Part shown: one piece after another, positions 3,202-9,155 of the stretch
Numbering within the stretch: position 1 is the first letter of the stretch
Layout of the letters: each line of letters opens with the position of its first letter
Source: a virus
IMG/VR virus record: IMGVR_UViG_3300020395_000008
Location: 1 to 59,730 of that record
Direction: 5' to 3' (one strand)
DNA: 59,730 nucleotides
Translations under genes and position numbers: made by a program
The notes under the pieces: generated by a model
Databases searched by the model: none
Told to the model about the DNA's origin: nothing
The model's input: the letters and a program-made list of their open reading frames with translations, nothing else

Positions 3202-3819
3202 ATGGGGACTCCGAAGCCACATAAAAAAGTATTATCAGATTTAAAGGCATCTATTTTAAGTCCTGCACTTACTTCTCATTTCCAATGCTGGTTTTATCCA
3301 CCTCCTCAAGTAAGAAGTTTATTAGAAGGTGATGAAAGGGATGATAGATTTATTTCATTATCATGTTCTGAAGCATCATTACCTGGAACTTCATTAGCCA
3401 CTAATGAAATGATTAATGATCATACAGGAGTCACAGAAAGACATGCTTATAGAAGACAATATGATGCAACTTCTTCTTTTACTTTTTATGTAGATCATGA
3501 TTATACAATGCTTACTTTTTTTGAAAAATGGATAGGGTTTATTGTGAATGAACCAAATTTAGATTTATCTGAAAGATCTGAATTTGGATTAAATCGGGAT
3601 GATTATTTTTATAGGGTCAATTTCCCTAAAGAATATCAAACTGCTATTTACATTAAAAAGTTTGAAAAGGATTATAATAATGGAAAGATGCTACAATATA
3701 AGTTTTTAAAATCTTATCCTGTCAGTATTGATTCAATGCCAGTTACATATGAGGCATCTCAGGTGCTTAAATGTACTGTTAATTTTAACTTCTCCCGTTA
3801 TTGGGTAGAGACCACCTAA
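3202..3819 (+). CDS. 54: Tail-tube-fold baseplate protein, gp54-like tail-tube initiator
   Basis: This 205-aa protein carries a phage tail-tube fold pattern: SHFQCWFYPP, then LSCSEASLPGTSL, then a long strand with FTFYVDHDYTMLTFFEKWI, and a final pair of strands (YPVSIDSMPVTYE, CTVNFNFSRYW). T4 gp54 (320 aa) shows the same order: a membrane/tube-contact strand, D-x-E-A followed by a W-helix, then a closing beta-sheet. T4 gp54 initiates polymerisation of the gp19 tail tube on the gp48-capped hub. The protein here lacks the long helical C-terminus of T4 gp54. A gp19-type tube protein is the alternative, but the neighbours (gp26, tape measure, gp27, gp5) favour a baseplate role. I see no clear ribosome binding site before the ATG. 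Confidence 0.6.
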   Translation: MGTPKPHKKVLSDLKASILSPALTSHFQCWFYPPPQVRSLLEGDERDDRFISLSCSEASLPGTSLATNEMINDHTGVTERHAYRRQYDATSSFTFYVDHDYTMLTFFEKWIGFIVNEPNLDLSERSEFGLNRDDYFYRVNFPKEYQTAIYIKKFEKDYNNGKMLQYKFLKSYPVSIDSMPVTYEASQVLKCTVNFNFSRYWVETT

Positions 3820-3850: not shown

Positions 3851-4570
3851 ATGCCTTTACCAAAGATTGCGACACCGACGTATGAGTTGGAATTACCTTC
3901 GACCAAAAAACCTATTCATTATAGACCATTTTTAGTTAAAGAAGAAAAACTTTTAGTTCTTGCCTTAGAAAGTGAGGATATAAAGGAGATAACAACTGCA
4001 ATTAAAAATGTAATTAAAGCTTGTATTAAAACACGAGGGATTAAAGTAGAGAGTCTTCCTACTTTTGATATTGAATATTTGTTCCTTAACATTCGTGGTA
4101 AGTCTGTTGGAGAAGATATTGAAGTTAATCTTATGTGTCCTGATGATGGTAAAACTCAAGTTCCTGTAACTATTAGTATTGATGATGTTCAAATTCAACG
4201 AACTGAAGGGCATACTAATAAGATTAAATTAGATGATTCTCTAATGATGGAGATGAAGTATCCATCTCTGGGTGAGTTTATTAAAAATAATTTTGATTTT
4301 AGTGAAGAGAATGTGATGACTCAATCTTTTGATTTAATTGCTTCTTGTATTGATAAAATTTATAATGAAGAAGAAGTATGGAGTATGGGTGATTGTACTA
4401 AGAAAGAAATTAATACTTTCTTAGAGTCAATGAATTCATCTCAGTTTAAAGAGATTGAAAAGTTCTTTGAGACAATGCCTAAACTTTCACATACGGTGAA
4501 ACTCACTAATCCGAATACTAAGGTAGAAAGTGAAGTTGTAATGGAGGGTTTATCCAGTTTTTTCGGTTAG
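3851..4570 (+). CDS. 26: gp26-like baseplate hub assembly protein and likely tail-assembly chaperone
   Basis: This 239-aa protein resembles the T4 gp26 family (208 aa in T4). Typical features are the opening LPKIATPTYELELPSTKK, IHYRPFLVKEEKLL with a following helical segment (ALESEDIKEITTAIKNVI), FDIEYLFLNIRGKSVGE, and a helical C-terminal half (EEEVWSMGDCTKKEINTFLE). It sits directly upstream of the tape measure, where tail-assembly chaperones usually lie. The last codons read AGT-TTT-TTC-GGT-TAG, a heptameric -1 slippery site just before the stop. About 238 residues would be shared with a 299-residue frameshift product that continues to 4749 (see the recoding entry). The assignment of the zero-frame protein to gp26 is good; the chaperone role is an inference from gene order and the frameshift. 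Confidence 0.75.
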   Translation: MPLPKIATPTYELELPSTKKPIHYRPFLVKEEKLLVLALESEDIKEITTAIKNVIKACIKTRGIKVESLPTFDIEYLFLNIRGKSVGEDIEVNLMCPDDGKTQVPVTISIDDVQIQRTEGHTNKIKLDDSLMMEMKYPSLGEFIKNNFDFSEENVMTQSFDLIASCIDKIYNEEEVWSMGDCTKKEINTFLESMNSSQFKEIEKFFETMPKLSHTVKLTNPNTKVESEVVMEGLSSFFG

Positions 4571-4593
4571 CTCTAGTCCACATGGATCTAGAG
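4543..4593 (+). promoter_or_regulatory. Programmed -1 ribosomal frameshift signal at the end of gp26
   Basis: All the parts of a classical bacterial -1 recoding signal are present in order. There is a Shine-Dalgarno-like GGAGGG (4543-4548), then nine bases later the slippery heptamer T-TTT-TTC in the correct register (4558-4564). The zero-frame stop TAG (4568-4570) lies in a 6-base spacer. A stem-loop follows, in which CTCTAGTCC (4571-4579) pairs with GGATCTAGAG (4584-4593) with one bulged T. A -1 shift joins the gp26 frame to an open frame ending at 4749 and gives a product of about 299 aa. The geometry resembles E. coli dnaX (upstream SD-like element, slippery site, hairpin) and serves the same purpose as lambda G/GT. 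No experiment supports it here, but chance co-occurrence seems unlikely. Confidence 0.8.
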
Positions 4594-4749
4594 AGTTATT
4601 ATAAGTTGAATTTTTCCTTGATTCAGTACCATAAATATTCATTAACAGAGATTGAAAACTTGATCCCTTGGGAAAGAGACATTTATGTTGAACTACTTCG
4701 AGCACATCTTGAAGAGGAGAAATTAAAACAGCAGCAAGCATCATCTTAA
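4582..4749 (+). CDS. Frameshift extension of gp26 (55 codons, probably not made alone)
   Basis: An open frame continues in the -1 register of gp26. Counted from its first ATG (4582) it encodes 55 residues beginning MDLESYYKLNFSLIQYHKYS and ending in a Lys/Gln/Glu-rich helix (LRAHLEEEKLKQQQASS). The ATG has no upstream Shine-Dalgarno sequence and lies inside the hairpin of the frameshift signal, so independent initiation looks poor. The frame is open back to the slippery site (codons CGG TTA GCT CTA GTC CAC precede the ATG). Its stop overlaps the tape-measure start (TAATG). I therefore read it as the T-like extension of a G/GT-type chaperone pair. A separately translated small hub protein remains possible. 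Confidence 0.75.
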   Translation: MDLESYYKLNFSLIQYHKYSLTEIENLIPWERDIYVELLRAHLEEEKLKQQQASS

Positions 4750-6275
4750 TGGCAGTAGCAGCTAAACCAGAAATTGCACGAATTCTATTGGATCTTGGGA
4801 TTGATCCAGTGGATGTTTATGCTGTTGATAATGCAGAACAAACTTATATCGCTGCATTAGTAGAAGGTATTAATACTCTTGAAGTTGCTAATAAAGGAGA
4901 GAGCACAAGATCAAAAATACTACGAGAGGAACTTAAAGGAGTAAGAGAGAAGAAAAGGAAAAAGGTAAGTGCTAGTAAATTATTTGCTCAGAAAAAAATA
5001 TTACCTGTTAGTAGGATTCGTTCTCAGGCATTACTTTCTCCAGCATCTGAAGGAGAATCATCTGCTGGAGAAGGAAAAGGTGTGGGTAACATATTAAATG
5101 GTATTTTAAATATTTTAAGATTGGGAAATAAGCAAGATAAAAAAGAATCTGCTGAAGATAGAAAAGAAAGACAAAGGCAAAGAAGAGAAAAAAGAGAAAG
5201 TGCAATAGAGTCATTGAAGGGAGGAACAAAAAAGGCTGCGAGTGCAGGTAAGAAAGCAGTAAGTTCTTTAATTTCTCCTTTTAAAAATATGTTGGATGGA
5301 TTAATTAATTTTCTTAAGGTTACTCTTTTAGGAACGTTGATTAATGGTGCTTTGAACTGGTTTAGTAAAAAAGAAAATCAGAGGAAGATAACAAATTTGG
5401 GAAGATTTTTTAAAGATTGGTGGCCTTCATTACTAGCAGGATTTTTATTATTTTTTACACCTATAGGTACTTTAGTTTCTGCAACTGCAACTTTATTAGC
5501 ATGGGCTCTTCCTGCACTTGCAGCTCTTGCTAAAAATCCTCTTATAGCAGGAGCAGCCTTATTCAGTGCAGGAAAAATTGCTCCTGAATTATTTCCTGAT
5601 CTTGTAAAAGATGAAGCGGATACGGCAATTGATGACTCTGTAAATAAACAAGGTTCAGATAAAACTATCACTGATTTAAAAGAACAACAAGAGAATAGGG
5701 GTCCGTTGCAGAGAATAGGTGATTTTATTACTGGTGCAGGAGCAGAAAGAGAAGAACAAATACAAAAATTAGAAACGGGAGAAGAAAAGAAATTTGGATT
5801 CTTTGGGGAAATAAAACCAAAGAAAATGAATGAAGGTGGAATAGTACCTGCTCCTTATCCTGTAGATAATGTATTGGGTACGGTTGGATTGACTGATGCG
5901 GAGAATACTCCTCCTATTATAACGGGATATAATAAAGGCGGGGTTGTTCCTGGAATGGGCAATAAAGATACAGTTCCTGCCATGTTAACTCCAGGTGAAC
6001 TGGTTATTCCTAAAAATTTGCTGGAAGGTCCAACTAATCCAACTAATGTTGATAGATCTTTTATGACTCCTGTAAAGAGTACTGCTAGAACTCCTGTCGG
6101 TACTCCTGTAAAAGTTAAGTCTATGAGTACTACTACAGTATTACCTCCAATTAAAAAACCTAAACCTTCTCAAAGGATAAGAGAAGGAAGTACTATTCCT
6201 GTCTTTAGAGTTGCTAGTAAATCTAATGCTAGAGAAATTACAATAAGATCATTGGGGATTGAAGAGGCATTATAA
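4749..6275 (+). CDS. 29: Tape-measure-like protein (gp29 equivalent)
   Basis: This 508-aa protein has the layout of a tail-length or tape-measure protein. There is a charged, helical N-terminal half with a basic/acidic stretch at about 125-160 (EDRKERQRQRREKRES). Strong hydrophobic helices follow at about 185-205 and 225-285 (LLAGFLLFFTPIGTLVSATA, LAWALPALAALAKNPLIAGA). The C-terminal part is Gly/Pro-rich and contains GGIVPAPYP at about 362 and GGVVPGMGNKDTVPAMLTPG at about 396. The latter motif recurs in tape-measure proteins of many phages. T4 gp29 (590 aa) is the ruler that sets tail length and lies inside the tube. The gene follows the gp26 chaperone pair and overlaps it by one base, which suggests translational coupling. 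Confidence 0.7.
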   Translation: MAVAAKPEIARILLDLGIDPVDVYAVDNAEQTYIAALVEGINTLEVANKGESTRSKILREELKGVREKKRKKVSASKLFAQKKILPVSRIRSQALLSPASEGESSAGEGKGVGNILNGILNILRLGNKQDKKESAEDRKERQRQRREKRESAIESLKGGTKKAASAGKKAVSSLISPFKNMLDGLINFLKVTLLGTLINGALNWFSKKENQRKITNLGRFFKDWWPSLLAGFLLFFTPIGTLVSATATLLAWALPALAALAKNPLIAGAALFSAGKIAPELFPDLVKDEADTAIDDSVNKQGSDKTITDLKEQQENRGPLQRIGDFITGAGAEREEQIQKLETGEEKKFGFFGEIKPKKMNEGGIVPAPYPVDNVLGTVGLTDAENTPPIITGYNKGGVVPGMGNKDTVPAMLTPGELVIPKNLLEGPTNPTNVDRSFMTPVKSTARTPVGTPVKVKSMSTTTVLPPIKKPKPSQRIREGSTIPVFRVASKSNAREITIRSLGIEEAL

Positions 6276-7540: not shown

Positions 7541-8895
7541 CTGCTAATCCATTACAATTTAATAAGTTTGAGATTAAGTCTAATGTAGATAGTAGGACTG
7601 TGGATCTACGTGGATCAGGAACTCCTATTATTGAATATCGTGAGAGTATTTTTATGCCTTATGTTGAAGTAACAGCATATATTGTTGATACTGGTAATAC
7701 TTTACCTGCAGATGATGGAACTGATGCTGGTATTGGTTTATTAGAGTCTGGTTTTTGCCAAGGAACAGAAACTATATTGTTTAATATTGCCGATCAAAGA
7801 GGAAATAAAATTAACTTGTCTAATGATAATGATTTAAGAGTTTCTTCTATATCAGATACTCATCAATCTTTTAAGAATACTACTTTTGTTCTTACTGCTG
7901 TTTCTAAGGAAGCATTTGATAATACTTTAGTAGATAATAGATGTAATCTTAAGTATAGTGGACCTATATCTGATATTGCTCGATCCATCGTAAGAGCAAA
8001 TTTAAAATCTCCTAAATGGAGATCGATGAATGTTGATGTTACTTCTAATCAATATCATGAATGGGGTCAAAATAGGTATCCATTTGAGATGATTCTAGAT
8101 CTACAACAATTGGCCATTCCTTATGGAATACAGACTTCAAAAGGTAAAGCACCTGATGGTAAAACTGCAGGATATCTTTTCTGGCAAACCTCTAATGGTT
8201 ATCAATTTAAATCCTTAGATAAATTATTTGACACTAAAGATAAGGTAATTAAAAAATATATTGAGAATAGTAAATCAGGATCTGATCTGTTGCCTGTAGT
8301 AAAAGATCATGAAGTTTATAATGGTAAAATTCTTTGGTCTACCATGTCTAGAAATATTGATGCTCTTAATCAATTTGAATGTGGTGCATGGGGATCTCAG
8401 GTACAGGTGTTTAATGATGTAACCAAGGAATATGAAAAAGTAGATTTATCTTCAGATGGTAAAGGAAATGGTATTAGTGCAGGAAAACATTTACCTCAAC
8501 TAAATTCTGAGTATAAGGATGCAATTACCACCATTGAAAGAATAGATCAAGCAGTTGGCCAGACAGTAGTGGGATTTGATAGTGTAGAACAACAAGTTAG
8601 ACAGACTGGTCAACTTAACTTTGATGTAAAACATACCACTCAACAATCTCATCAAAATTATAGACAAAAGATGAATACTTCAATGGAGATTGTCATTGAG
8701 GCTGATTTAAGTTTACATGCAGGTGATTTGATATTTTGTGACTTTCCTGAACTTTCTACTAAAAAGACACTCAGAGAAAGTAGGGATCGATCAAGTGGCA
8801 TATATATGATAGCAGATCTCTGTCATTATGGTGATAAAGGAAATGCCTTTACTGGTCTGCATTTGGTAAGAGATTCTTATGGAGTTAAAACATGA
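7537..8895 (+). CDS. 27: Baseplate hub protein gp27
   Basis: This 452-aa protein is a little longer than T4 gp27 (391 aa). The opening NPLQFNKFEIKSNVDSRTVDL, the strand pair EYRESIFMPYVEVTAYIVDT, and later SKEAFDNTLVDNRCNLKY and PFEMILDLQQLAIPYG fit the gp27/VgrG-like hub fold. The C-terminal part (QMNTSMEIVIEADLSLHAGD-like strands, then DRSSGIYMIADLCHYGDKG) matches the end of hub proteins that form the trimeric torus bound by gp5. It overlaps both neighbours by an ATGA. A giant gp5-like protein follows after the small gene at 8892. Confidence 0.8.
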   Translation: MTANPLQFNKFEIKSNVDSRTVDLRGSGTPIIEYRESIFMPYVEVTAYIVDTGNTLPADDGTDAGIGLLESGFCQGTETILFNIADQRGNKINLSNDNDLRVSSISDTHQSFKNTTFVLTAVSKEAFDNTLVDNRCNLKYSGPISDIARSIVRANLKSPKWRSMNVDVTSNQYHEWGQNRYPFEMILDLQQLAIPYGIQTSKGKAPDGKTAGYLFWQTSNGYQFKSLDKLFDTKDKVIKKYIENSKSGSDLLPVVKDHEVYNGKILWSTMSRNIDALNQFECGAWGSQVQVFNDVTKEYEKVDLSSDGKGNGISAGKHLPQLNSEYKDAITTIERIDQAVGQTVVGFDSVEQQVRQTGQLNFDVKHTTQQSHQNYRQKMNTSMEIVIEADLSLHAGDLIFCDFPELSTKKTLRESRDRSSGIYMIADLCHYGDKGNAFTGLHLVRDSYGVKT

Positions 8896-9155
8896 CTATT
8901 AAACACGACTTAGAACACGAAGTTTACATTGATCCTAAAGATGGTAAGGAGCATACTAATCATGGTATGCATGAATATACTAAAGAAGACTTAGAGAATG
9001 TTCATGCTGATTATGATGTTTATCATAAAGATGACGTAGTGGATACGAATGAAGGTAAGATTAATGATTATCATACACGTCATGAAGATCATCATTTGGA
9101 AATTTATTGCGATAATCATCCAGATGCAGATGAATGTAAGGTATACGACGATTAA
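8892..9155 (+). CDS. Small His/Asp-rich protein with a CP12-type C-terminal motif
   Basis: This 87-aa protein is very acidic and has about a dozen histidines (HTNHGMHEYTKED, HTRHEDHHLEIY). It has no hydrophobic segment and is probably disordered. Its end, YCDNHPDADECKVYDD, closely matches the GAPDH-binding tail of CP12, the redox regulator of the Calvin cycle: two cysteines spaced C-x8-C (C73 and C82), a proline within the loop, and E-C-[RK]-V-Y-[DE]-[DN] at the extreme C-terminus. The CP12 core that binds phosphoribulokinase (AWD-x-VEEL) is absent. The gene is locked between gp27 and the gp5-like gene (ATGA overlap upstream, zero-base gap downstream). It may be a virion or hub accessory protein, a CP12 mimic, or a metal-binding peptide. 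Confidence 0.75.
   Translation: MTIKHDLEHEVYIDPKDGKEHTNHGMHEYTKEDLENVHADYDVYHKDDVVDTNEGKINDYHTRHEDHHLEIYCDNHPDADECKVYDD

Follow-up and report, generated by a model that had tools for sequence, protein, structure and literature searches.

Frameshifted tail chaperones are classic in long-tailed phages, and the tail assembly chaperone (TAC) frameshift mechanism is itself well known. In phage λ, the chaperone products gpG and gpGT are reportedly made by a −1 frameshift. The locus described here lies in a 59,730-nt virus record of IMG/VR (the window), and it resembles the λ case in that the gene precedes a putative tape measure gene, carries a heptamer near its end, and is predicted to give a short and a long product with a common N terminus. 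It differs from λ in protein family (PF12322), in the T-run heptamer with a stop 3 nt after it, and in the SD-like element and hairpin that flank the heptamer. T4 gp26 and gp51 belong to the same family as the window protein, with gp26 corresponding to the short form and gp51, end to end, to the fused long form, but T4 uses two separate, divergent genes without a heptamer.

Related arrangements are mentioned in two articles. According to PMC10885494, citing Vladimirov, Gautam and Davidson 2022, some T4-like phages have short and fused long chaperone genes in place of frameshifting. PMC12846349, citing the same work, speaks of poly-T slippery sequences as already known from the TAC-N genes of T4-like phages. 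It also describes Vandenendeviridae and Andersonviridae, in which a TAC −1 frameshift takes place at GTTTTT; there the T-run ends TAC-N, the −1 frame is open in all genomes, and the downstream frame was formerly a separate hypothetical gene; these are families other than that of the window virus, and the T-run as printed there is not a canonical X_XXY_YYZ heptamer. Our search of the open literature found no direct description of a gp26 frameshift in cyanophages. An earlier note on this DNA suggested that the case may be undescribed for gp26-type genes of T4-like marine phages. Going by how these articles cite Vladimirov et al. 2022, which apparently treats TAC genes of T4-like phages including poly-T slippery sites, that work likely covers the cyanophage case as well, at least in part.

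The gp26-type protein of the window is 77% identical to gp26 of Prochlorococcus phage P-TIM68, and the virus is therefore cyanophage-like, of the T4 superfamily (Kyanoviridae-type). The features of the locus are as follows.

3202–3819, + strand: tail-tube-type protein, upstream of gp26 (PF23849, phrog_45)
3851–4570, + strand: gp26-type gene, short form of 239 aa, TAC-N equivalent (PF12322 T4_baseplate, phrog_150; aligns with T4 gp26)
4543–4548, + strand: SD-like internal element GGAGGG (from the sequence; codon enrichment in relatives)
4558–4564, + strand: slippery heptamer T_TTT_TTC in the phase of gp26 (from the sequence; kept in relatives)
4564–4749, + strand: −1 extension ("gp51", phrog_634), 61 codons and then TAA (matches the C terminus of T4 gp51)
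4568–4570, + strand: zero-frame stop TAG, 3 nt past the heptamer (from the sequence)
4571–4593, + strand: downstream stem-loop, with core stem 4575–4579 paired to 4584–4588 (from folding; core covaries in relatives)
4582–4584, + strand: internal ATG within the hairpin, without an SD; the start that annotators would choose for "gp51"
4749–6275, + strand: next ORF, 508 aa, probable tape-measure or tail-interior protein (weak tape-measure PHROG matches)

The zero frame of ORF 3851–4570 reads AGT TTT TTC GGT TAG at the slip site. Nine bases (4549–4557) lie between GGAGGG and the heptamer, and the six-base spacer GGTTAG (4565–4570) includes the zero-frame TAG. The earlier note had described this succession of GGAGGG, nine bases, in-register heptamer, stop-containing spacer and stem-loop, and every element was found again at the same position. 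The −1 frame is open for 61 codons from the heptamer (55 if counted from internal ATG 4582) and ends with the TAA at 4747–4749, which overlaps the ATG at 4749 of the next ORF (TAATG). The note's claim that this frame runs to the start of the tape measure therefore holds for the open frame and the overlap, while position and weak PHROG matches suggest that ORF 4749–6275 is the tape measure. The gene order is a tail-tube-type gene, two overlapping gp26 frames, and a weakly tape-measure-like ORF. Further along the tail gene block, a small ORF (8892–9155) has a C-terminal CP12 domain (PF02672, E 1e-06) and is probably a host-metabolism gene of a cyanophage.

By far the best explanation of the locus, in which we have high confidence on sequence grounds, is a G/GT-type −1 frameshift at T_TTT_TTC that would yield a C-terminally extended gp26; the locus is very probably a TAC-N/TAC-NC frameshift. 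Specifically, most ribosomes would stop at the TAG at 4568 and release the 239-aa short form (TAC-N, the equivalent of T4 gp26). Some ribosomes, slowed by the SD-like GGAGGG behind them and the hairpin ahead, would slip back one base at the heptamer, with both Phe tRNAs re-pairing from UUU/UUC to UUU/UUU. The shifted ribosomes would read 61 more codons and produce a 299-aa form (...LSSFF-RLALVHMDLESYYKLNF...; TAC-NC, the equivalent of T4 gp51), with the extension as its C-terminal domain. A fixed minority of the long form would connect the chaperone with both tape measure and hub at tail initiation. We infer the slippage, its rate and the chaperone role from the features of the locus and its relatives.

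Relatives were picked by gp26 similarity, as the best 80 per scan. In all of the best 80 close relatives in IMG/VR, TTTTTTC sits in phase with a 3-nt gap to the stop and is followed by a homologous −1 frame. When distant seeds were added, again with the best 80 per scan, 187 of 190 gp26 loci had a T-run heptamer in phase, at 0, 3 or 6 nt upstream of the stop, with the extension in the −1 frame, so the heptamer is not a chance occurrence. These loci come from phages of cyanobacteria (Synechococcus), Methylophilales, Sinorhizobium, Stenotrophomonas, Aeromonas, Vibrio and Desulfovibrio (Nitratidesulfovibrio). The three loci without it are from a Vibrio phage (L089), a Serratia phage (L091) and a Stenotrophomonas phage (L181, around position 3250). 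L181 has T5 at the slip site versus T6 in the near-identical L180, which breaks both the end of gp26 and the extension and is probably a homopolymer indel of assembly. The comparison of gp26 ends proposed in the earlier note thus bears out the conserved heptamer and the open −1 frame, together with a covarying core hairpin (see below).

The pattern was resolved further in 140 non-redundant representatives. The codon before the slip encodes Ser, Asp, Asn or Gly, yet it ends in T in all 140; the first Phe codon is TTT in all 140, and the following codon is TTC, TTT, TTA or TTG (Phe/Leu). The amino acids thus vary while TTTTTT stays. Given the amino acids and codon usage, the chance of this codon pattern is ~1e-56 if rows are independent, which they are not entirely; the representatives are related, so the p-values from this set are indicative. 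The gap between heptamer and stop is 3 nt in 113 of the 140, 0 nt in 26 and 6 nt in one. In 11 of the 140, a −1 stop starts 10 nt ahead of the zero-frame stop, leaving only ~7 nt of heptamer between the two, and the shift must therefore happen at the heptamer. The window has 66 long ORFs; in 25 of them the −1 frame stays open for 40 or more codons past the stop, and gp26 alone among these carries a heptamer in phase within the overlap.

The flanking elements show their own signatures. The Glu-Gly pair upstream of the slip is encoded in relatives by GAG in 93/130 cases (background 32%) and by GGG in 40/138 (background 6%), an enrichment of SD-type codons with p of 3e-20 and 3e-17. This bias fits, as expected, a putative SD-like stimulator ~10 nt ahead of the slip. 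Downstream, the stem-loop of the window (CUCUAGUCC-ACAU-GGA(U)CUAGAG, 4571–4593) has a folding energy of −11.3 kcal/mol (z −1.7). Its 5-bp core (columns 18–22 with 27–31 of alignment A1) has two-sided changes at 5/5 pairs and is paired in 86% of cells; its covariation score is reached by 0/500 shuffles and lies above all slid controls. The full 9-bp stem of the window was rejected as a conserved structure, as it pairs in only 64% of cells, and the long outer stem is restricted to the window and near relatives. The nearly perfect stem-loop of the earlier note is therefore present, but only its inner 5-bp stem is conserved and covarying. In relatives, the downstream folding energy is lower than that of shuffles, with a mean z of −1.7 versus −0.54 in control stretches; the stems vary from clade to clade, those of the TTTTTTA clade being weak.

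Both predicted products have counterparts in T4. The short form matches PF12322 (E 1e-74) and the extension matches phrog_634 (E 5.8e-28); T4 gp26 and gp51 are both PF12322 proteins, and the C terminus of T4 gp51 also matches phrog_634. T4 gp26 aligns with the short form (hhalign E 6e-20) and ends exactly at the junction (RGLKEFF), while the alignment of T4 gp51 to the profile of predicted fusions runs from end to end (E 8.7e-13). T4 therefore has two genes for what the phages with the slip site would make from one. The frameshift signal, its conservation and the homology of both products to T4 gp26 and gp51 can be read directly from the sequences.

Relatives that have gp26 without a slippery site, which the earlier note would have counted against the frameshift, do exist. 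In T4, 44RR, KPN6 and ZZ1, the heptamer is absent, yet gp26 and gene 51 are separate and divergent, with the long form as its own gene 51. Slip site and separate long gene are therefore complementary, which supports the frameshift model. T4 and KPN6 encode the same FF as TTC TTT, and the other Straboviridae PX29, CC2 and VmeM-32 retain the slip site. The T4 gene pair likely arose, as we infer, by duplication and fusion in T4-type Straboviridae. The 59.7-kb record, which is possibly a fragment, has one gp26 match and no second long-form gene as in T4, and no second PF12322 match was found among the tail-block ORFs tested.

A gp26 profile sequence search of the PDB found no relative, and NCBIfam gave no match. 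A structure model was built from the window and IMG/VR loci, with a mean pLDDT of 89. Its relatives in a viral structure library are baseplate hub/gp26 proteins, and the HK97 chaperone 2OB9 ranks third among its PDB matches, a weak match (E 1.4, probability 0.21) that at most hints at a chaperone fold.

A different reading, and a very improbable one, is that the extension forms a small gene in its own right (gp51, "hub assembly catalyst"), started at the internal ATG by termination-reinitiation or coupling. Most close relatives do have an ATG at extension codon 4 or 7, just behind the gp26 stop, and GenBank annotates the extension as a separate gp51 gene from such an ATG, or leaves it out. However, only 1 of 139 relatives has an SD-like 4-mer ahead of the extension's first in-frame ATG, compared with 76 of 138 for gp26 starts. 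The earlier note had seen no ribosome binding site at the ATG in the hairpin, and there is indeed no SD at ATG 4582. Moreover, in about a quarter of representatives the first ATG is no earlier than codon 15, which places it within the conserved domain, and the residues A-L-x-H ahead of it are conserved. An independent gene also leaves the T-run and the codon bias unexplained. Regarding annotation, the "hub assembly" gene of Methylophilales phage Melnitz-3 (L084:3194–3393) begins ~20 codons inside the conserved extension and is probably truncated as annotated; no in-frame ATG lies further upstream in its clade, which carries a T8 run.

Still less probable is transcriptional slippage, by which an added base at the T-run would bring the fusion into frame in some mRNAs. 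T-runs of 6–8 occur, including T8 in 13 representatives, but the run is exactly T6 in 124 of the 140, and T6 is short for efficient polymerase slippage. A T6 interrupted by C or A is also conserved in phase, and the phase, SD-like element and hairpin are marks of ribosomal shifting. Least probable, and already refuted by conservation, is that a sequencing or assembly error, or gene decay, has split one long ORF: a homopolymer adjoins the break and L181 shows that such indels occur, but the same break is at the same place in 187 of 190 loci from many projects and hosts, and the T4 gene pair reproduces exactly both products. Ribosomal frameshifting, which the earlier note had taken as the best, G/GT-type route to the long product, is thus favored by conservation, codon bias, covariation and homology to T4.

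The heptamer is not universal, since its canonical form is missing from Ackermannviridae (L193–L195, L205–L219) and several Vibrio phages (L089, L197, L198, L200) that have retained the −1 extension. These loci have a run of 4–5 T (ATT TTC or CTT TTT), often with 13–16 nt between the −1 and zero-frame stops, and the run is possibly a non-canonical −1 shift site.

We tentatively suggest a broader picture, which is rather less than an even bet. There would be no independent cyanophage "gp51"; in most of the T4 superfamily other than T4-type Straboviridae, one gene would give both chaperones by a −1 shift, and the T4 gp26/gp51 pair would have come later, by duplication and fusion with loss of the slip site. 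The superfamily-wide signal (heptamer, SD-like element and covarying hairpin) would be unrecorded. The frameshift reading itself would correct how hundreds of marine phage genomes are annotated, as the extension now appears there as a separate "hub assembly catalyst" gene or is omitted. T4 gp26 and gp51, long-debated hub proteins, would simply be one chaperone in a short and a long form, and frameshifting and gene duplication would be a natural pair of solutions for setting a protein ratio.
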